Below the pieces are notes generated by a model, which did not search any database, was not told the DNA's origin, and worked only from the letters and a program-made list of their open reading frames with translations. Positions 6,409 through 52,557 of a stretch of DNA of 53,801 bases are shown piece after piece (positions within the stretch are counted from its first letter, which is position 1; each line of letters opens with the position of its first letter). The DNA is from Oligoflexia bacterium. Lineage in GTDB: Bacteria; Bdellovibrionota; UBA1018; CAIMNF01. The stretch spans positions 1 through 53,801 of the forward strand of contig CAIMWN010000030.1 of assembly GCA_903845155.1 (NCBI GenBank). Direction: 5' to 3'. Position numbers and translations under genes: made by a program.

Positions 6409-7275
6409 TTATTTCAGGCTGTTTAAATAACGGTGATAGCGATTCAGCACTTCCCACTTCACTCGATCGAGCGCCATGGTTTGAGCGAATTTAAAATGAA
6501 AATCAAAATTAGGATCACTTCTCTGTTTCAGACCAAAATCAACTCCAGCATCACACATTCGGAGAACAAATTTGGCGTACCATTGAGCAAGATCACCAGA
6601 AGAGTCTTTCATCTCATCTAAATGTAGAAGCGACTCTTCGCCCAAAACGCGTTTCAATGTCAGCGTCGATGCGCCCAAGAAAGTCTCAAGCATATTTTGA
6701 AAAATCTCATCTTTCGTTTTCTTTGGTTTTACGACTTGAGAAGGATGCGACGAAATCTCTGAATCGCTCGCTGCTTCAGGAAAATCAATAGTGGGAACTT
6801 TTTTAGCTTCGTCCTTTTGAAACTCAGTTGGATTCTTCATCACCATCTGAAGCTCTGCCATTTCCAGCGCAAATGCCTTTAATACGGTGGGAGACGCAGA
6901 TTGACTTTTTGCCTCGAGAGCGCGGTAGCGGGAGCCCATAATAATCCCACGATAGATTCCTTCAAGAGAGGCTCCTTGATTGAGTGAGTATACGAGTTCG
7001 CCAAAGTTAGATTTGTCTTCCACTTGAGGCTCGTTAAAAATCACGGACATCATTTCAAAAAGAAGCTCAGAATTTGCTTTCGCCAATTCGCCCGCCGACT
7101 TGTTCGATGTTTCATCGGGCGTGGGCTGACTCATTTCACTTTTTACTTCTGATGGTAGCGTTTTTGTTTCTAATCCAAGAGTCTCTTTGACTCTGACCAC
7201 GAATTGTTTTAACAAGGGAGGCGTTTCACACGCCGAAAGCGTGAACAAGGTCAGCAATAATAAAATGCTTTTCAT
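6409..7275 (-). CDS. Lipoprotein linked to the BMP ABC transporter
   Basis: The 288-residue product starts at ATG 7275 (MKSILLLL). Its A overlaps the last base-pair position of the upstream permease stop (TAATG arrangement), which indicates translational coupling. The N-terminus is a lipoprotein signal with lipobox LSAC (Cys at about residue 15). The mature part is helical, polar and rich in Lys/Glu, with no recognised domain. A longer frame reading upstream into the permease gene exists but would destroy the signal peptide, so I rejected it. As the last gene of the importer operon it may be a periplasmic accessory lipoprotein; that role is inferred from context only. The 70-nt palindrome follows directly. 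Confidence 0.8.
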   Translation of the reverse strand: MKSILLLLTLFTLSACETPPLLKQFVVRVKETLGLETKTLPSEVKSEMSQPTPDETSNKSAGELAKANSELLFEMMSVIFNEPQVEDKSNFGELVYSLNQGASLEGIYRGIIMGSRYRALEAKSQSASPTVLKAFALEMAELQMVMKNPTEFQKDEAKKVPTIDFPEAASDSEISSHPSQVVKPKKTKDEIFQNMLETFLGASTLTLKRVLGEESLLHLDEMKDSSGDLAQWYAKFVLRMCDAGVDFGLKQRSDPNFDFHFKFAQTMALDRVKWEVLNRYHRYLNSLK

Positions 7276-8153
7276 TACTCCGCCACCTGTCCTAAACTTT
7301 TTGGCGCATACGAGCGGCCAACAGCTCCAGCCAATACAATCATCGTGATGAGATATGGTAAAATCTGGATCCACTGAACTGGTACCGGCTCGGTCCCCCA
7401 AATTACCACTCCTTGCAAACGAATTTGAATTGCTTCGGTAACACCAAAGAGCAAACAGGCAAGAACGGTAGGGATTGGCTTCCATTTCCCAAGGATCACA
7501 GCGGCAAGTGCGATAAACCCTCGGCCTGCCGACATATTCCGAATAAATGAAGAAGAAAGGTAAATCGAAAGTGTTCCGCCGCCTAGGCCTGCTAAGAATC
7601 CGCTCATCAGTACGCCTTGCCAGCGTTTTGTCTTAATTGAAACACCGGCACTCTCTAGCGCTTTTGGGTGCTCACCTGCGAAACGAAGTCTTAAGCCGAA
7701 ACGAGAGTAATAAAATACGATATGGGTGAGGGCCACAATCATGAGCATGATAAACAGAGGCGCAATCTTAAATTGCGATTCTGTAGGAATGGGCGGAGTA
7801 GAACCGGTAGAGTCATACCAAATCTTAGAGAGAAAAGGAGGGATGCCCATTGCAAACAAATTGAGTGCCGTGCCTGCGACAATTTGATTCGCGCGATAAT
7901 GAAGAACGACCACTCCGTACAATACTGAAAGCACCATGCCAGCAATCCCTGCAAATAAGAAACCCAAGTAAGGATTACTAAAATAGAGAGTAGAGATCGC
8001 ACCAAAAAAAGAACCAATCAGGATAAATCCCTCGAGGCCGATTTGAATGACCCCACTTCGCTCGCACCACATACCACCTAAGGCAGCAAAGATGAGCGGC
8101 GTAGAAACGCGCATTACTGGCAAAAGCCATGACTGTATAAATGAATCGATCAT
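7275..8153 (-). CDS. ABC transporter permease, BMP/nucleoside type (COG1079-like)
   Basis: This is a 292-residue inner-membrane permease with roughly eight hydrophobic segments. The N-terminal half contains LIFAALGGMWCERSGVIQIG and EGFILIG, typical of the second permease of BMP-family importers (YufQ/NupQ class). The C-terminal half has LSAGRGFIALAAVILGKW, also typical. The start ATG 8153 overlaps the preceding gene's TGA (ATGA), with an AGGAAA ribosome binding site inside that gene. An ATG six codons upstream is possible but less well placed. With its neighbours it should form the membrane channel of an importer for purine-type nucleosides or similar ligands; the substrate is inferred from family knowledge. 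Confidence 0.93.
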   Translation of the reverse strand: MIDSFIQSWLLPVMRVSTPLIFAALGGMWCERSGVIQIGLEGFILIGSFFGAISTLYFSNPYLGFLFAGIAGMVLSVLYGVVVLHYRANQIVAGTALNLFAMGIPPFLSKIWYDSTGSTPPIPTESQFKIAPLFIMLMIVALTHIVFYYSRFGLRLRFAGEHPKALESAGVSIKTKRWQGVLMSGFLAGLGGGTLSIYLSSSFIRNMSAGRGFIALAAVILGKWKPIPTVLACLLFGVTEAIQIRLQGVVIWGTEPVPVQWIQILPYLITMIVLAGAVGRSYAPKSLGQVAE

Positions 8154-9193
8154 TTTCGTTTCCTTGTCCACAGACCTTCAGCAGCAACGCCCAAGATGAT
8201 TAAGCCTTGAATGATGTATGATAAATCTCTCGTCACTTTATCGGTTTCAAGATCAAGGCTTCCTGCTCCCTTTTGCAAGATTCCAAATAAAAGCGCTGAA
8301 GGAATGATCCCTAAGATATTTCCGCGAGCAACGAGCGCTACCGCAATCCCTACGAAACCATAATCGGCTGAGAAGCCAATTTTAAAACGGTGTGAGTTAC
8401 CGAGCACTTCAATGATCCCCACCAATCCAGCTACACCACCGGCGAGAAACATGGAGCTCATCCAAATTTTCTGCTTGGATATCCCATACACCCCAGCAGC
8501 CTTTTCGTTTTCGCCTACAGCTTTTAATTCATAACCCCAAACGCTATGCCACATCCAAAAATAAAGAAACACAACGAGGGCGAGGAGCCAAAAAATAAGT
8601 GGCCCCATCGGAGCTCCGTTAAAGCATTCAAATGCTTTCAAATGATAAACACTCGGCAACAATAGGGTTTCCGCTTGTGCGCTGTTTGGATCTTTTAATA
8701 CATATAAAGTAAAATAAGCAGAAACGCCGGCGGCGATGAAGTTCAACATGATGGTCGTGATGACTTCATGGCTTCCCCGCTTCGCTTTTAAAAACCCAGG
8801 AATCGCTCCCCAAATTCCGCCCCCCACAAATGCAAATACCACCGCAAGTGCAATTGCAAGGACAGGCGACTGCACATTGGGCGCAACCACGGCTACTGCA
8901 GAGGCGGCAAGCGCCCCCATCGTCAACTGCCCTTCGGCGCCAATATTAAAAAGGCCCGATTTAAAGGGAATCGCAACGGCAAGACCTGTAAGTAGAAGAG
9001 GTGCGGTATAAAATAGGGTCATTCCAAAATCATAGCCGCTGCCAAAAGCACTCTGAAAAAGTATCTTTAAAATTTTGATCGGGGATTCGCCCGTAAACCA
9101 ACATATCATGAGGCCTAAGAATAAACCGAGCATCGCCCCTAATATCGACTTCACTAAGGCACGCATAGATGCATTCATGGTAATGGCTTTCAT
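8150..9193 (-). CDS. ABC transporter permease, BMP/nucleoside type (COG4603-like)
   Basis: This is a 347-residue permease with multiple hydrophobic segments. GLAVAIPFKSGLFNIGAEGQ (about residues 71-90) and GFVGIAVALVARGN (about 279-292) are characteristic of the first permease of BMP-family importers (YufP/NupP class). The start ATG 9193 overlaps the ATPase gene's TGA by four bases, and its own stop overlaps the next permease in the same way. It pairs with that permease as the heterodimeric membrane domain. The residues around VTRDLSYIIQG near the C-terminus also fit. No anomalies are seen. Confidence 0.94.
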   Translation of the reverse strand: MKAITMNASMRALVKSILGAMLGLFLGLMICWFTGESPIKILKILFQSAFGSGYDFGMTLFYTAPLLLTGLAVAIPFKSGLFNIGAEGQLTMGALAASAVAVVAPNVQSPVLAIALAVVFAFVGGGIWGAIPGFLKAKRGSHEVITTIMLNFIAAGVSAYFTLYVLKDPNSAQAETLLLPSVYHLKAFECFNGAPMGPLIFWLLALVVFLYFWMWHSVWGYELKAVGENEKAAGVYGISKQKIWMSSMFLAGGVAGLVGIIEVLGNSHRFKIGFSADYGFVGIAVALVARGNILGIIPSALLFGILQKGAGSLDLETDKVTRDLSYIIQGLIILGVAAEGLWTRKRK

Positions 9194-10737
9194 TGTTCGC
9201 CCCCTGCTGCTTTATCCCCACCACCCATGGTGCGTCCGATATCCCAGGAATCAAATTCACGACGCGAGAATTCGGCTTGAATCTTACCATCAAAGAAAAC
9301 CAGGATGCGGTCAGAAAGATCCATTAACTCATCTAACTCAGAAGAAAAAAGCATGACCGCTTTGCCTTTGTTACGTTCTTGCATAATCGCATCATGAATT
9401 TTCTCAATTGCACCCACGTCCACCCCACGCGTGGGATGAGCCACAAACAAAATGGAGGGATCAGGATCTAAAGCGCGCGCCATTAAAAGTTTTTGTTGAT
9501 TACCGCCACTCATCTTCCCTGCCCAAACAGTGGTATAGGGAGGCCGAATATCAAACTCTTTAATCTTATTTTGCACTTGGGCAGTCACCGCTTTTCGATT
9601 GATAAATCCTCGGCTGATGTAGCGCGGATCTTCCTGCTGCCCCAGAATGAAATTCTCAGTCATATCTTGTTGAAGTAAAAGGCCTTCTGAGATTCGATCT
9701 TCGGGCACCAAGCCCACACCCTTATTTCTTAACTCCAGTGGCGACGCGTGAGAAACACTTCTGCCTTGAATGTAATATTCGCCATTCGCTTTTGAAGCCA
9801 TCGACGAAGGATGAGAAAGAAAGCGTAAAAGCTCTGATTGGCCATTGCCCTGAACTCCAGCAATACCCAGAATTTCGCCAGGATTGAGTTCAAAACTGAT
9901 ATCCTTGAGAGGTTCATTAGTTTTAACTGTACTTAAATTTTTTACCTGCAGTACTGATTTTGGCTTTACTTGCGATGCTAAGATTTTTCGTTCGCCTTGA
10001 TAAGTGAAAGACACCTTCCGTCCCACCATCATCTCTGCGAGTTCGTCTTCATTGGTATCGCGGGTCACTTTCGTACCCACTACTTTGCCTCTTCTCATCA
10101 CCGTTACTGCGTCGGTATATTCCAGAACCTCTTTTAGCTTATGAGAAATAAGAATGATGGTCTTACCCTCATCCTTTAAGCGCCTGAGATTGGTGAAGAG
10201 CTCTTTCACTTCTTGCGGAATGAGTACTGCTGTGGGTTCATCGAGAATCAGCACTTCCGATTTTTGATAGAGTAACTTAATGATCTCTACCCGTTGCTGC
10301 TCCCCCACCGACAAACGGGATACGGGCTCATTCCATTTTGAAAAATGAAGACCATAACTTTCAGAAATTTTTTGTAATTCTTTTTGAGCGACTTCACGAT
10401 TAATTATTCCAAAAAAGGAAGTGGGTTCGTGGCCAAGTATAATATTATCGAGAACGGTTTCTGTTTCAGCGAGCATGAAATGTTGATGAACCATTCCTAT
10501 CCCCAGACTCATGGCATGAATGGGGTTTTTAATCAGAGAAGGCTTTTCGCTGATCAAAATCTCGCCGCCGTCTAAGGGATAAATGCCGAAAAGCACCTTC
10601 ATTGCTGTGGATTTACCAGCGCCATTCTCGCCAATCAAACCATGAATGGTTCCGCTTTCCACACTAAAGCTCAAATCTTGATTCGCAAAAAATGTCCCAA
10701 ACTGTTTTGAAACATTTTTAAACTCAATAATTTTCAT
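9190..10737 (-). CDS. ABC transporter ATP-binding protein, duplicated domains (BMP type)
   Basis: This 515-residue cytoplasmic ATPase has two nucleotide-binding domains. The first has intact Walker A (GENGAGKST, about 36-44), signature LSVGEQQ and Walker B VLILDEPTAVL. The second has a Gln in place of the Walker A Lys (GNGQSEL), signature MSGGNQQ and a Walker B-like ILFVAHPTRGVDVG. This asymmetry is normal for the sugar/nucleoside-type double ATPases (RbsA/YufO class). It should energise the two permeases encoded next to it. The ATG at 10737 overlaps the TGA of the binding-protein gene, so it is translationally coupled within the operon. Confidence 0.95.
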   Translation of the reverse strand: MKIIEFKNVSKQFGTFFANQDLSFSVESGTIHGLIGENGAGKSTAMKVLFGIYPLDGGEILISEKPSLIKNPIHAMSLGIGMVHQHFMLAETETVLDNIILGHEPTSFFGIINREVAQKELQKISESYGLHFSKWNEPVSRLSVGEQQRVEIIKLLYQKSEVLILDEPTAVLIPQEVKELFTNLRRLKDEGKTIILISHKLKEVLEYTDAVTVMRRGKVVGTKVTRDTNEDELAEMMVGRKVSFTYQGERKILASQVKPKSVLQVKNLSTVKTNEPLKDISFELNPGEILGIAGVQGNGQSELLRFLSHPSSMASKANGEYYIQGRSVSHASPLELRNKGVGLVPEDRISEGLLLQQDMTENFILGQQEDPRYISRGFINRKAVTAQVQNKIKEFDIRPPYTTVWAGKMSGGNQQKLLMARALDPDPSILFVAHPTRGVDVGAIEKIHDAIMQERNKGKAVMLFSSELDELMDLSDRILVFFDGKIQAEFSRREFDSWDIGRTMGGGDKAAGGEQ

Positions 10738-11738
10738 TTTTTCTTTTGGCCATTTTGAATTAAATAATAATCAGGTACTTTGATCTTACCCGTAATAATA
10801 TCTGCACGAAGGGCTTCGAGTTTTTTACGGTCATTGGCAGTCACTAACTTCGCGTTGTTCTCATCCATTGCATAATCAACGCCCTTCGATTGCACTCCGT
10901 AGCGAATAAGACCGGTAGTGAATTTACCTTCTTTGTAAAGCTTGATGGAATCAAACACGGCTTCGTCCACGTGCTTCAACATGCTGGTTAAGACATACCC
11001 AGGCTTCACCCAATTTTGATTGGAATCGACGCCGATCGCGAGTTTGTTTTTTTCTTGAGCGGCATCAAACACACCGAGACCTGAATTCCCTGCAGCGACA
11101 AAGATTACTTCGGCTCCGCGATTGAATTGATCAAAGGCGAGTTCTTTCGCTTTAGGAGGATTATTCCAAGCCTCACCCGTCACACCCAAGTAGTTAGAAA
11201 GAACTTCGGCTTTAGGGTTAATTTTTTTTACACCGGCTTCGTAGCCCAATTGAAAGCGACGAATGAGGGGCACATCCATTCCGCCCATGAAACCCACTTT
11301 TCCGGCTTTAGAATGGAGGGCCGCGAGCGCGCCGACCAAGTAACTCCCTTCTTGTTCTTCGAACATGACCGAGCGAACATTCGGCATCTTTGCATCTTCA
11401 TCGACGAGCACAAATTTTTGATTCGGAAAACGGGCAGCATTATTTCTTACCGACTCCAATTGATGGAAGCCCACTGCCACAATGATATCGAATTTCTTTT
11501 CTGAAAACGCCCGCTGGAGCGATTCATAGGCACTGTTGTCGGGAGCTTCTACAGTTTTGGTCGTTACACCCAATTCTTTTTCGGCGCGTTTGACGCCTTG
11601 ATAAGCAGAGGCGTTAAACGATTTATCATCTTTACCCGACTTTTCAAGCACGAGTCCTACTTTGATCTCGGCCATCGCTGAGTGAGAAAGTACCAATAAA
11701 GAGCCCAAAACTAACGCGAGTTTTTGAATGGATTGCAT
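10734..11738 (-). CDS. BMP-family substrate-binding protein (PnrA-like)
   Basis: This 334-residue periplasmic protein has a type I signal peptide cut near SAMA-E (about residue 23). There is no lipobox cysteine, so it should be soluble, unlike many BMP lipoproteins of Gram-positives and spirochaetes. KVGLVLEKSGKDDKSFN, GVKRAEKELGV, VGFMGGMDVPLIRRFQLGYEAG and GVDSNQNWVKPGYVLTSMLK follow the BMP (PnrA/Med) pattern, a family that binds purine nucleosides in characterised members. It is the first gene of the five-gene importer operon, and its TGA overlaps the ATPase ATG. Ligand identity is inferred from the family. Promoters for it and for the divergent TadG-like gene must lie in 11739-11859, where I see only weak matches. 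Confidence 0.94.
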   Translation of the reverse strand: MQSIQKLALVLGSLLVLSHSAMAEIKVGLVLEKSGKDDKSFNASAYQGVKRAEKELGVTTKTVEAPDNSAYESLQRAFSEKKFDIIVAVGFHQLESVRNNAARFPNQKFVLVDEDAKMPNVRSVMFEEQEGSYLVGALAALHSKAGKVGFMGGMDVPLIRRFQLGYEAGVKKINPKAEVLSNYLGVTGEAWNNPPKAKELAFDQFNRGAEVIFVAAGNSGLGVFDAAQEKNKLAIGVDSNQNWVKPGYVLTSMLKHVDEAVFDSIKLYKEGKFTTGLIRYGVQSKGVDYAMDENNAKLVTANDRKKLEALRADIITGKIKVPDYYLIQNGQKKK

Positions 11739-14078: not shown

Positions 14079-14750
14079 ATGGCAAAGAAAGCAAAAAAGA
14101 AGCCGGTAAAAAAGGCAGCTGCAAAGACAACTAAGAAACCCGCTAAAAAGGTTGCAGCTAAAAAAGCGGCCCCAAAGAAAGCTAAAAAAGCTGCGGTTAA
14201 AAAACCAGCGACTAAAAAAGCAGCTCCGAAAAAAGTCGCAGCTAAAAAACCAGTGGCTAAAAAAGCGGCCCCGAAAAAAGCTGCGGCTAAAAAGCCAGCT
14301 GCTAAAAAAGTAGCTACCCCAAAAGCAAAGACTTCTAGCAAAGCGGAAACCTCAAAACTCACTAAGAAAGTTGCTGCCGGACTCGTGGGCGCTGTTGCCG
14401 GTGCAACCATTGCATCTGTTATTTCTCACGAACAAAATGAAGACGACGACTTCGAAGAAGGTCAAGCGCACGCAGGTCTTGCTGACGAAGAAGACGACGG
14501 AATGCTTGAGACCCTCATCGATGACGAAGAGTCTCTCAAAGAAGCCGACGAAGAAGACGAAGATGATTATTTCACTCGTGGCTTTGATGATGAAGACGAA
14601 GTACTTGCCGACGATGAAGAAGAAGAAACTGACGATTTAGATGACGACCTCGACGATGATCTAGATGAAGAAGATGATCTAGGCGAAGAGGACGAAGAAG
14701 ACGACCTACTGGATGACGACGAAGACCTCGCAGAAGAAGACGAAGAATAA
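14079..14750 (+). CDS. Histone H1-like basic protein with polyacidic C-terminal tail
   Basis: This 223-residue protein has three parts. Residues 1-97 are a Lys/Ala/Pro repeat (KKAA, KKPA, PKKA units) like eukaryotic H1 tails and bacterial Hc1/AlgP-type proteins. Residues 98-116 are a Gly/Ala hydrophobic stretch (GLVGAVAGATIASVI). Residues 117-223 are almost entirely Asp/Glu. The basic part should bind nucleic acid; the acidic part could self-shield it or recruit basic partners (inference). A clean GAGGAG ribosome binding site precedes the ATG. A strong terminator follows at 14786, so this is a monocistronic unit. The opposite-strand frames here are artefacts of the repeats. The hydrophobic middle might be a membrane segment, which would change the model. 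Confidence 0.85.
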   Translation: MAKKAKKKPVKKAAAKTTKKPAKKVAAKKAAPKKAKKAAVKKPATKKAAPKKVAAKKPVAKKAAPKKAAAKKPAAKKVATPKAKTSSKAETSKLTKKVAAGLVGAVAGATIASVISHEQNEDDDFEEGQAHAGLADEEDDGMLETLIDDEESLKEADEEDEDDYFTRGFDDEDEVLADDEEEETDDLDDDLDDDLDEEDDLGEEDEEDDLLDDDEDLAEEDEE

Positions 14751-14846: not shown

Positions 14847-15935
14847 ATGGACATAAGAGATACAGTTCACGGTGTAATTCATATTGAAAGCCATGAGCTT
14901 CCTATTATTGATTCGTATGTTTTCCAACGCCTTCGTCAAATCAAACAAACCGGCTTTGCAGAGCACTCCTACCCAGGAGCAACCCATAATCGATATATCC
15001 ATTCATTGGGTGCCCTTCAGACCATCACCGATACCTTTCAATCTATTTTTGCAAAACTCAAAATTAAAAACGAAGATGCATGGTTGCGCTTTCGGGCCCT
15101 TTCCCGATTTGCGGCCCTCCTCCACGACATCGGCCATGGCCCACTCTCTCATACCACTGAATTTGCAATGCCTGAAGTCTCCCAACTCAAAGTGCCAGGA
15201 CAAAAGAAAACACAGAACAGAAAAGCGACTCATGAGGATTACACCTTAAAAATAATCCTCGATTCACCTCTTACTCCCCTTCTTGAAAAAGCTACGAAAG
15301 CATTTGGCTTCAACCCCATTCACATTGCCGCCACCATCGAATCTCATATTGAAGTAAATGATGATTTCTTTTTTGAAAAAATTGATGGTGAGAAAATCAA
15401 CTTTCGCCCCATTCTTCATCAACTCATTTCGAGTGAGCTCGATGCCGACCGGATGGATTACTTGCGCCGGGACAGTTTCTATTGTGGGGTCAGTTACGGA
15501 GTGTTTGATTACTCTTGGATTGTTTCTAATCTTTGCGCTCACATCAAGGATGGGGCTTATTACCTGGGCCTAAATCATCGAGCGCTTTACGCATTTGAAG
15601 ATTTTTTACTTTCCCGCTATCACATGTTCCTCATGGTGTACTTACATCACAAGACGGTCGTTTATGATGAAATGCTTGCCAAATACCTCAATGACCCGAA
15701 GTGTGAGTATTCCCTGCCTGCAGATATCGACCGTTACATTCAATGTACCGATGCCCAACTTTATGCTCACTTGTCTTCATCGCAAAACCAATGGGCAAAA
15801 CGGATTGTAGAACGGCGTCCGCTCCGCATGGTACTGGAGACGCATAGCGGAATCCCTTCCACTGAAAACGCGAAGGAACAACAAGAGAAACTTTTTAAGA
15901 AAGTTTGTGACGAGCTAAAACGCAAAAAAAATTGA
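14847..15935 (+). CDS. HD-domain phosphohydrolase (COG1078, SAMHD1-like), interrupted by frameshift
   Basis: The intact frame gives 362 residues. RDTVHGVI at the N-terminus, RLRQIKQTGFAEHSYPGATHNRYIHSLG, then FAALLHDIGHGPLSH with the HD pair at about 93-94, and SSELDADRMDYLRRDS are the hallmarks of the YwfO/SAMHD1-like HD family, which hydrolyses dNTPs in characterised members. Metal ligands H52, H93 and D94 are present, and an Asp in the ELDAD motif. The frame stops with RKKN right after an A8 run (15924-15931). The +1 frame continues with family-like sequence to 16173, giving about 441 residues if joined, a normal family length. The ATG at 14847 directly follows a terminator. This is either a sequence error, a recent lesion or slippage-dependent expression. 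Confidence 0.9.
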   Translation: MDIRDTVHGVIHIESHELPIIDSYVFQRLRQIKQTGFAEHSYPGATHNRYIHSLGALQTITDTFQSIFAKLKIKNEDAWLRFRALSRFAALLHDIGHGPLSHTTEFAMPEVSQLKVPGQKKTQNRKATHEDYTLKIILDSPLTPLLEKATKAFGFNPIHIAATIESHIEVNDDFFFEKIDGEKINFRPILHQLISSELDADRMDYLRRDSFYCGVSYGVFDYSWIVSNLCAHIKDGAYYLGLNHRALYAFEDFLLSRYHMFLMVYLHHKTVVYDEMLAKYLNDPKCEYSLPADIDRYIQCTDAQLYAHLSSSQNQWAKRIVERRPLRMVLETHSGIPSTENAKEQQEKLFKKVCDELKRKKN

Positions 15936-16173
15936 ATACATCTCCACCAAGTCTACGGGTGAACTGTCAAAATATTTTGGAACATTTGATCACCCTATCT
16001 TTATTAAATACGACAACCTTTACTCTACCCCTAGCTTTATCCCATTGCAAAAATGTACGCCACTCTTCACCCAGTACCCTACGATCCGGTCCATTTCACG
16101 ACTCTTCGTGACGCCAGAAGAGTTTGCAAAAATTAGAACACGCGGACGCGACGAGCAGATGCATTTTGACTAA
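15924..16173 (+). other. Out-of-frame C-terminal extension of the HD phosphohydrolase
   Basis: From 15931 the +1 frame reads IEYISTKSTGELSKYFG and continues through FDHPIFIKYDNLYSTPSF to RTRGRDEQMHFD, ending at TAA 16171-16173. It has no start codon of its own with a ribosome binding site. It reads as coding: no stop for 80 codons, sensible composition, and a stop butting directly against the next ATG at 16174. Joining it to the upstream frame requires skipping one A of the eight-A run or having one A fewer. It was therefore almost certainly part of the same gene. Confidence 0.8.
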
Positions 16174-17052
16174 ATGAAAAACGGAAAGTATCTTCTCTCA
16201 TATCTGCTTTTCCTCACGACTCCTGGCCTCTACGCCTTTGCGCAAACGAGCCCACTCTCAACAGGTGATTTGAAATGGGTCAATCAAACTAAACCAGCAC
16301 AGTCTGCGCCATCTCCGTTTCCTCAAAGCCAAAGTGCTGTCGTAAAAAAAGACCTTACCTTAGAAAACACGGCCACTAATGAAACGATCTTCGGCTTTTA
16401 TTATTTAAATACGATCCTCAACTGCACCGACCTCACCACCTTAAACACTGCCGCTATCGCCACCCAGTATAACTTGGGCCTGTCACTAGACCTCTACCGC
16501 GAGTGGAAGCGAAATCATCAAATTCTTTATCAACTGAAAGGCGGCTTCGCCAACTTTAAGCAAACCGACAGCAGCGAAGAGCAATTAGTCAAAACCCAAG
16601 CCTTTCAATGGCTCATTGCCCTGGGTGATTCATTTACCATTCATCAAAACTTCAGACTTGAGTCTTCCCTTAATTTAAAAAATGAACTCATTTTGGTGCC
16701 TCATACCACCAACGATTTTACGATCGAATCCGTGCTGGTCGCATCACTCAGCGAAAAGCTTCTTCTTGATCTTTGGCAAACTAAAAACTTTAAGCTGGGG
16801 GGTTCGGCCACCCTTGAACTGATTGCCCCCTCACGAAGAGATGATACCGATACCCATACCAGCTTTGCCCTGGGTGGAGCAATTTATGTACAAAACCTGC
16901 CGAAGGATCAGAATCATCTCCGATACCAGGGTGAAATAGGGGTCATGAATACTAACCTCAATACCAGCGTCTATTCCCAATCCGAAATCGACTTCGCATT
17001 TCTATTAAAAGTTTTCTTTAAATCGAGTTCTGAAAAACCTTCAGGATACTGA
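16174..17052 (+). CDS. Secreted barrel-like protein of unknown function
   Basis: This is a 292-residue protein. A signal peptide of about 24 residues ends near YAFAQ. A Pro/Ser/Gln-rich linker (about 30-55) follows, and then a C-terminal region of alternating polar and hydrophobic strands (GLSLDLYREW, LYQLKGGFANF, FRLESSLNL, FKLGGSATLEL, LRYQGEIGV) that resembles an outer-membrane barrel. No family is recognised. Its ATG follows the TAA of the HD gene's out-of-frame tail without a gap (TAAATG), suggesting translational coupling to a full-length HD product. The last 12 bases overlap the convergent hydrolase gene. Confidence 0.7.
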   Translation: MKNGKYLLSYLLFLTTPGLYAFAQTSPLSTGDLKWVNQTKPAQSAPSPFPQSQSAVVKKDLTLENTATNETIFGFYYLNTILNCTDLTTLNTAAIATQYNLGLSLDLYREWKRNHQILYQLKGGFANFKQTDSSEEQLVKTQAFQWLIALGDSFTIHQNFRLESSLNLKNELILVPHTTNDFTIESVLVASLSEKLLLDLWQTKNFKLGGSATLELIAPSRRDDTDTHTSFALGGAIYVQNLPKDQNHLRYQGEIGVMNTNLNTSVYSQSEIDFAFLLKVFFKSSSEKPSGY

Positions 17053-50457: not shown

Positions 50458-51384
50458 ATGAAATTCAAGGGAAACCTTTCTCTTTTCGCTATACAGCTAC
50501 TATTACTTACTCTCATCACCAGCGGCTGCGGAAGGGCCCAAAACCCCATCACTGTAGAACCGATACTATCTTCGGTAAAAATAAAACAAAGCGAAATAAA
50601 CGAACTCAGCCAACTCTCAGATTCGTTTCCATCAAAAATTATCGGTGAAAATAACCTTGTTCCAGTCAAAGTAGATGGATCAAACCTTGAAGCAAACCTT
50701 CGCAATGTGATCGACGCTTTCGGTCTCATCAACATTAATGGACAGGGCGCTTGCTCTGCTACTCACTTAGGTAATGGTTATGCACTCAGTGCAGGCCACT
50801 GCTTCTTAGATGAAAATAATCCCGCAGCACAAACGGCGACCAATAAAGATTGCACTACCGTGAAAGTATATTGGGGTTATCGCGGCTCTCCTAAGACAGG
50901 AAATGCAAAACCACTCATTACTTTAACCAGTCAATGTCTTAAAGTAGTTTACGCAGAACTTTCTAAGTCTAGAGATTTTGCAATTTTCAAAGTCGATCAA
51001 GCCCCAAAAGCAAAAATTGCAATTTCTACTGATACCAAAAGAACGCCTACTGGCACTAAACTCACTATTTTTGGCTACCCTCAAGCGCGGCCACTCGAAT
51101 GGTCACAGTACTGCGCACTTCAACCGAAGTCAGTTATCGGTGCTGGTGCGGGTGCCGTTGTTTCTGAATTTGCTCATCAATGCGATACAGAACCGGGCAA
51201 TAGCGGAAGCTCAATTCTTTCGATCACTTCAATGGGTACCGTAAAAGTAGTGGGGATTCACGATGGCGCAAGTCCTGCAGATTATAACTACGGAACTTTT
51301 ATGTTTGATGCCCGAGATACTGTAAAAAAGCACGGTGTTGATCTCGATCAGGTTACTGGTGCCGCTTTCAGCAGTTCATTTTAG
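50458..51384 (+). CDS. Trypsin-like serine protease lipoprotein
   Basis: This is a 308-residue protein. The lipobox ITSGC gives lipidated Cys24. The catalytic triad is His114 (ALSAGHC), Asp173 (SRDFAIFKV) and Ser249 (EPGNSGSS). The fold is chymotrypsin/V8-like, and further Cys pairs are likely disulfides. It should act at the envelope, facing the periplasm or outside. A strong AAGGGGG ribosome binding site precedes ATG 50458. It follows the 607-base leader region with alternative hairpins and precedes the GNAT-family gene by 36 bases. The substrate is unknown. Such proteases are plentiful in predatory bacteria, but that link is only contextual. Confidence 0.92.
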   Translation: MKFKGNLSLFAIQLLLLTLITSGCGRAQNPITVEPILSSVKIKQSEINELSQLSDSFPSKIIGENNLVPVKVDGSNLEANLRNVIDAFGLININGQGACSATHLGNGYALSAGHCFLDENNPAAQTATNKDCTTVKVYWGYRGSPKTGNAKPLITLTSQCLKVVYAELSKSRDFAIFKVDQAPKAKIAISTDTKRTPTGTKLTIFGYPQARPLEWSQYCALQPKSVIGAGAGAVVSEFAHQCDTEPGNSGSSILSITSMGTVKVVGIHDGASPADYNYGTFMFDARDTVKKHGVDLDQVTGAAFSSSF

Positions 51385-51420
51385 ATTCACAATTTCAGTA
51401 TTTTGGTCTACCGTGTCTGA

Positions 51421-52557
51421 ATGAGTAACATTACCATTCGCGAAGTTTCAGGCAAAAAGGGCAGAGATCAATTTATTGATGTGATGTGGAAAATTTATAA
51501 TCATCAAGAACATCCGCAATGGGTACCGCCCTTGCGGATGTCGGTTTATGAGCTGATTGATACCGAAAAAAACCCCTTCTATAAACGCGCCACGATTCAA
51601 CTCTATATTGCAGAAAAAGATGGAAAACCCGTTGGTCGTATCGCCGCGATTGAAAATCGTGCGCATAATGAGTTCTATAATGATAAAACTGGCTTCTTTG
51701 GTTTTTTTGAATGCATCGACAATCAAGAAGTGGCGACTTTGCTTTTTCAAACAGCTGAGAAATGGGTAAAGGACCGCGGCCTCGCCAGCATGATGGGCCC
51801 AATGAATCCCTCTACTAATCACGAATGTGGGCTACTGATTCGCGGTCAAAGCCAACACCCAACTATTCAAACCACGTGGAACCCTAAGTACTATGAAGCG
51901 CTTCACGATGCTTACGGCCTCACTAAAGCGAAAGACTTAGTCGCTTACATTGTGGTCAGAGAAAAGGGCGTAGATTTGCCAGAGAAGGTAAAGAAATACG
52001 TTCAAAAATTGCGCGGTGAAAATTCACGAATCAAATTCCGAGACCTCAACGTTAAAAACTTCGCCGGTGAAATCGAAGCCTGCTTTGATATTTACAATGC
52101 TGCCTGGGAAAAAAACTGGGGTTTCTTTCCAATGACTAAGGAAGAATTCGTCTTTGCGGCAAAAGATATGAAAATGATCATGGATCCTCGTATGGCATTC
52201 ATCGCAGAGATCGATGGAAAGCCAGCTGGCTTCATGCTCGCCGTGCCTGACTACAATTATATTTTCAAACACATTAAGAACGGCAGGCTTTTCCCTACCG
52301 GTATTTTCAAGCTTCTCTTTGGTAAAAAATTATTGAAGTCAGTTCGAATTATTACCTTGGGAGTAAAACCCGAATACCGTGGCTCCGGTATTTTCGCTCT
52401 CTTTACCTATGAAGCATTTGAACGCGCACAAAAATTTGGCTATGTTGCAGGTGAAGCATCATGGATTCTTGAAGATAATGTTGCGATGAATAAGCCTTGG
52501 CAGGACTTGGGTGCTCCCCTCTACCGCCGTTGGCGAATTTACGAGAAGCAAGTCTAA
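51421..52557 (+). CDS. GNAT-family acetyltransferase-like protein
   Basis: This is a 378-residue cytoplasmic protein without signal peptide. IQLYIAEKDGKPVGRIAAIENR (N-terminal half) and MAFIAEIDGKPAGFMLAVPDYN with IITLGVKPEYRGSGIFALFTYEAFERAQKFGY (C-terminal half) show GNAT folds, the latter with an R/G-rich acetyl-CoA pocket. The middle and the GPMNPSTNHECGLLIRG segment belong to a large GNAT subfamily of unknown substrate. The length suggests two GNAT-like modules, one probably degenerate. ATG 51421 has no clear ribosome binding site. The mltA ATG follows its stop directly. Confidence 0.88.
   Translation: MSNITIREVSGKKGRDQFIDVMWKIYNHQEHPQWVPPLRMSVYELIDTEKNPFYKRATIQLYIAEKDGKPVGRIAAIENRAHNEFYNDKTGFFGFFECIDNQEVATLLFQTAEKWVKDRGLASMMGPMNPSTNHECGLLIRGQSQHPTIQTTWNPKYYEALHDAYGLTKAKDLVAYIVVREKGVDLPEKVKKYVQKLRGENSRIKFRDLNVKNFAGEIEACFDIYNAAWEKNWGFFPMTKEEFVFAAKDMKMIMDPRMAFIAEIDGKPAGFMLAVPDYNYIFKHIKNGRLFPTGIFKLLFGKKLLKSVRIITLGVKPEYRGSGIFALFTYEAFERAQKFGYVAGEASWILEDNVAMNKPWQDLGAPLYRRWRIYEKQV

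Follow-up and report, generated by a model that had tools for sequence, protein, structure and literature searches.

A frame break at a run of eight A's in an HD-domain phosphohydrolase gene of an Oligoflexia bacterium: fresh lesion, sequence error or two-form gene?

Introduction

Does a gene that stops right after a run of eight A's, and whose missing end lies open in another frame just downstream, still yield a complete protein? The question arose in a window of 53,801 nucleotides (the whole stretch of DNA analysed here), which is one entire contig (C30) of a 4.29-Mb draft genome in 337 contigs, apparently metagenome-assembled. This genome is larger than those of its congeners, which span 2.1–3.4 Mb. 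The initial annotation proposed that the run splits a single HD phosphohydrolase gene, and left open whether slippage on the run gives two useful protein forms, whether the gene carries a fresh lesion, or whether the sequence is in error. We compared the locus with its homologues, with the rest of its own genome and with known cases of frameshifting.

Results

Reading frames at the run

The DNA around the break reads ...GAGCTAAAACGC-AAAAAAAA-TTGAATAC..., and the locus is present as a single copy in its own genome; the features are collected in Table 1. As the initial annotation had it, the 362-aa frame stops right after the run, and the frame entered at 15925 stays open until a TAA at 16171-16173, which adjoins the ATG of the next gene; peptide YDNLYSTPSFIPLQK is part of the translation of this tail frame. 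Computed read-outs for different run lengths were 362 aa for A8, 441 aa for A7, 442 aa for A10, and for A9 a 421-aa protein that ends in unrelated sequence, so that the joined length, first given as about 441, proved exact for A7. According to these read-outs the frame is repaired by the loss of one A or the gain of two, and both the gain of one A, which is the common slippage product, and a -1 ribosomal shift lead into the unrelated tail. No ATG, GTG or TTG from which the tail could be re-initiated was found in the tail frame near the stop, the TTG at 15932 belonging to the third frame.

Table 1. Features at the split HD-domain gene, in window coordinates.
Feature	Position	Strand	Basis
A8 run, site of the frame break	15924-15931	+	At most A4 at the homologous site in congeners
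HD-domain phosphohydrolase ORF, 362 aa, truncated SAMHD1/EF1143-like dNTPase-family protein	14847..15935	+	Pfam, solved structures
Early TGA stop that results from the shift	15933..15935	+	Sequence
C-terminal coding stretch in the shifted frame (82 codons, then TAA)	15925..16173	+	C-termini of all relatives are homologous
Next gene, 292 aa, signal-peptide-like start, ATG 16174 directly after the TAA of the tail	16174..17052	+	

The product of the 292-aa next gene matched nothing in Pfam or NCBIfam, and no homologue of it was found in the flanks examined in relatives. Directly upstream of the split gene, 14079-14750 encodes a two-part protein, rich in Lys and Ala and histone H1/HC2-like in its first half and strongly acidic, rich in Asp and Glu, in its second, with matches to Pfam HC2 and to the NCBIfam histone-H1-like model below cut-off. 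On the reverse strand, 7278-11738 holds two BPD_transp_2 permeases, an ABC ATPase and a secreted substrate-binding protein resembling a BMP-type lipoprotein, an arrangement that is likely an operon and suggests a nucleoside-type ABC importer. A 358-aa ORF at 6412-7485, also on the reverse strand and without a Pfam match, shares about 200 bases with the permease gene 7278-8171, and its true start probably lies further in.

Homologues and the run

In a search of 97 genomes at an E-value of at most 2e-76, head and tail shared a single open frame in all 63 orthologues, 406-499 codons long from stop to stop, and the window copy was the only short one, with 379 codons. The joined length therefore suits the family, and the idea that homologues might end naturally at this point turned out to be false. 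The named relatives of the gene come from MAGs, most of which carry the label Bdellovibrionales or Oligoflexia bacterium. All 11 congeners were intact, with 438-447 aa from the aligned start, and at the site of the run they read, for example, AAG GGA ATT, AAG AAT ATT or AGA GGG ATT. Comparison of the run across related genomes, which the initial annotation had called for, showed that the longest A-run at the site was A4 in these 11 congeners and A6 in any relative examined; because the run is absent in relatives, it is private to the lineage of the window rather than a conserved recoding site. No other strain of the species was found within the genus, where the best DNA identity was 71%, and a pattern scan of viral contigs that allowed A6-A10 gave no match.

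An open tail frame of 80 codons is by itself weak evidence for coding, as 144 of 796 out-of-frame stretches past ORF stops in the same genome (18%) were that long, although many such stretches run into the next gene. The tail is significant because of its homology, not because of its open length. Along its residues 1-82 it was 54-65% identical to congener C-termini, with E-values down to 2.6e-36, which bears out the conservation first suspected, and tail and congeners share the motif LSKYFG...PIF(V/I).YDN..S.PSFIP..KCT.LFTQYP..RSISR. Differences between tail and congeners by codon position were about 0.2/0.2/0.65, the third positions being the most variable, and it follows that for almost all of its history the tail was coding sequence; it contained no further stop or indel. 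The branch leading to the window was longer in the tail than in the head (0.44 against 0.16, ratio 2.7), and we rejected this as a sign of decay after a lesion, since the branch of an intact congener (L005) showed as much (0.45 against 0.13, ratio 3.4). Taken alone, these selection data would be consistent with a recent lesion, with an error and with a tail that is still made.

Protein and fold

The window head matched PF01966 (HD) with 28.5 bits, over the cut-off, and PF19276 (HD_assoc_2) with 26.8 bits against a cut-off of 23.1, so that the HD-associated helical region is present. The HD metal motifs (H...HD...D) are kept in the 362-aa ORF as ..NRYIHSLG.., ..LLHDIGHG.. and ..LDADRMDYL..; the head matched the solved proteins 2hek, 2o6i and SAMHD1, and the motifs aligned with those of 2hek and 2o6i. 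The model for dGTPase proper, TIGR01353, stayed below its cut-off (29.8 bits against 152.35), and the PADLOC dGTPase model reached 24 bits, confined to the HD segment. A complete C-terminal alpha/beta subdomain in frame is absent from the window copy and present in all relatives. Judged by its sequence, the gene is by descent a member of the HD dNTP triphosphohydrolase superfamily, and its predicted product is incomplete.

The predicted structure of a congener protein (L033; pLDDT 91.4, pTM 0.91) resembled the folds of 4lrl (EF1143 with dGTP and dTTP) and 2hek, with TM scores of 0.69-0.72. Its C-terminal part consists of strand 324-330, helix 337-356 and strands 361-369, 382-385, 393-396 and 410-418, and the window sequence breaks at the counterpart of residue 357, between the helix and strand 361-369. 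On this model the truncated protein loses four of the five strands that make up the C-terminal subdomain and keeps the HD metal motifs; because of this loss the short product would probably fold poorly and be unstable, or be inactive. The tail alone gave no meaningful match among solved structures. A second HD paralogue, 34% identical, is intact in the same genome, and it may or may not stand in for the truncated gene.

Frameshift screen of the genome

About 488 kb of unmasked sequence from the same genome was screened for frameshifts against 1.98 Mb of a congener (G002), which left about 143 kb of coding DNA checked against orthologues. The screen returned four frameshift candidates, one of them real, namely the HD gene, and no other true frameshift was found in these 143 kb. 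Among the candidates rejected as frameshifts, a 1086-aa ORF of the congener (G002:C4:124655-127912, L110) proved to be a Tad-like protein fused to the antisense shadow of a BMP-type lipoprotein gene; window positions 50635-51464 matched a shadow ORF on the strand opposite a forward gene; and the pair at G000:C27 6561-7380 reflected a spurious N-terminal extension. Shadow ORFs of the kind of L110 give false frameshift calls when genomes are screened by comparison. The 143 kb contained eight A/T runs of at least eight bases, seven of which (lengths 8-9) lay in intact frames, together with 66 seven-base A/T runs in intact aligned frames. Since no other frameshift was found and seven of the eight long runs were intact, homopolymers are not a general source of error in this assembly, although a single error may have occurred.

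MutS is intact in this genome, and MutL was seen only as fragments at contig ends. The MutL-like pieces G000:C27:6-893 (L219) and G000:C39:4-1011 (L220, L221) overlap at model positions 167-280, and BLAST detected no similarity between the former and the latter; one of them may stem from a different organism in the bin, or there may be a second MutL-like gene. Elsewhere in the same genome, G000:C11 12321-13486 and 15348-16513 (L087) form a direct repeat of 1.17 kb that is about 85% identical, with weaker copies nearby.

Discussion

In this study, the reading that best fits the locus is a recent insertion of a single A, an ordinary loss-of-function lesion, to which we assign a probability of roughly 0.58. 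Replication slippage would have added one A to a short A-run found only in this lineage, the unbroken state presumably being A7, read as R-K-K-I-E-Y, and the added base would shift the frame of a SAMHD1-like HD dNTPase-family gene, truncating the protein at residue 362 of 441; the lesion may also be polymorphic in the sampled population. We infer the direction of the change, a gain of one A, as well as its effect and its recency, the last because the tail has gathered no further stop or indel and its third codon positions are still the most variable. Three points weigh against a lesion. It is seen in one draft genome, where a single consensus error would look identical; the tail bears no clear mark of decay; and almost every relative retains the family, whose loss should therefore cost something, yet the 34%-identical paralogue is intact.

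The main rival is an error of consensus or assembly, in which the organism would carry A7 and an intact gene; we consider this possible but clearly less probable than a lesion. It would account for a singleton finding in a draft of 337 contigs and for tail decay no greater than in intact relatives, and most homologue-validated frameshifts confined to one genome are either fresh indels or errors of sequencing (PMC3711429). Against it stand the lack of a second frameshift in the orthologue-checked DNA and the intact frames across the other homopolymers there, and, as a weak argument, perfect overlaps of 98-132 bases at contig ends, which resemble short-read graph assembly, a procedure that rarely miscounts A8. 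Fresh lesion and sequence error, both named by the initial annotation, are thus retained, and the genome-wide control leans to the lesion.

Slippage of RNA polymerase on the run would give a mixture of truncated and full-length protein and make the gene a functional 'pseudo-pseudogene'. Such slippage is known elsewhere (tssM, Blochmannia genes, IS elements of Deinococcus and Nostoc), on the IS elements it is thought productive even on A8 (PMC1088944), and the tail of the HD gene keeps its coding constraint. However, the run is kept in no relative examined, and the frame would be restored by -1 or +2 A, while bacterial homopolymer slippage is mostly +1: most indels that arise during transcription of bacterial A/T runs add a single base, and in E. 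coli fewer than 1% of transcription deletions begin inside homopolymeric runs (PMC5574713). The run is also shorter than the usual nine or more A's, the length from which selection against slippage is visible in many genomes (PMC1088944). Coding strands of ORFs in the 488-kb sample held 32 A8 and four A9 runs; A8 being so common, the site in the HD gene is not special, and nothing singles it out. We therefore regard slippage as improbable, and a gene that makes both enzyme forms by -1/+2 transcriptional slippage, with the C-terminal part on some subunits only, as more improbable still; the two purposeful forms first suggested for the run were not borne out. If slippage were nevertheless true, it would be a rare deletion-type rescue on just eight A's in a SAMHD1-like enzyme.

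Phase variation, with A7 and A8 cells coexisting and the enzyme toggled by replication slippage, is very unlikely: a homopolymer within a gene is expected to produce length variants at a low rate, but this tract is short and absent from relatives, no arrangement of the contingency-locus type was seen, and the intact MutS gives no mutator sign from that side. Programmed ribosomal frameshifting that joins both frames, for which an A-rich decoding site just ahead of the stop could speak, is barely conceivable, because a -1 shift on A AAA AAA enters the A9 frame whereas the tail needs +1 or -2, the site is missing in all relatives, there is no prfB-like +1 context, and the codon before the stop, AAT, re-pairs poorly one base on (ATT), unlike in prfB-type shifts.

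Returning to the lesion, we see at this locus a conserved gene with an ordinary indel of one base in a homopolymer rather than a designed switch, and a purposeful two-form system is unlikely. Annotators should flag the gene as frameshifted, through either a recent indel or an error, and should not treat it as recoded or as encoding an enzyme that is short by nature; beyond annotation the finding has little importance.

Compared with EF1143 of Enterococcus faecalis (2o6i, 3irh, 4lrl), O67745 of Aquifex aeolicus (2hek) and SAMHD1, the protein shares the HD motif and the HD-associated region, but against this superfamily (COG1078-like) the window copy is without the roughly 80 C-terminal residues of its relatives, and its dNTPase role is putative. 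In tssM (tssM1) of Citrobacter rodentium, transcriptional frameshifting takes place on A11 (PMC4256274); as there, the stop follows the A-run directly and the missing C-terminal domain lies just downstream in another frame, whereas here the run is A8, a change of -1 or +2 is needed, the run is not conserved and the case is known from DNA alone. The frameshifted genes of Blochmannia and Buchnera likewise have a single poly-A indel with the remaining gene intact, but those genomes have many tracts of at least nine and several such genes, in contrast to one gene with A8 in a genome of 45% GC (PMC3017870). The closest likeness is to the singletons of the GeneTack survey, which occur in one genome, are validated by homologues, have no recoding motif and are classed as 'indel mutation or sequencing error' (PMC3711429), and from these we saw no difference.
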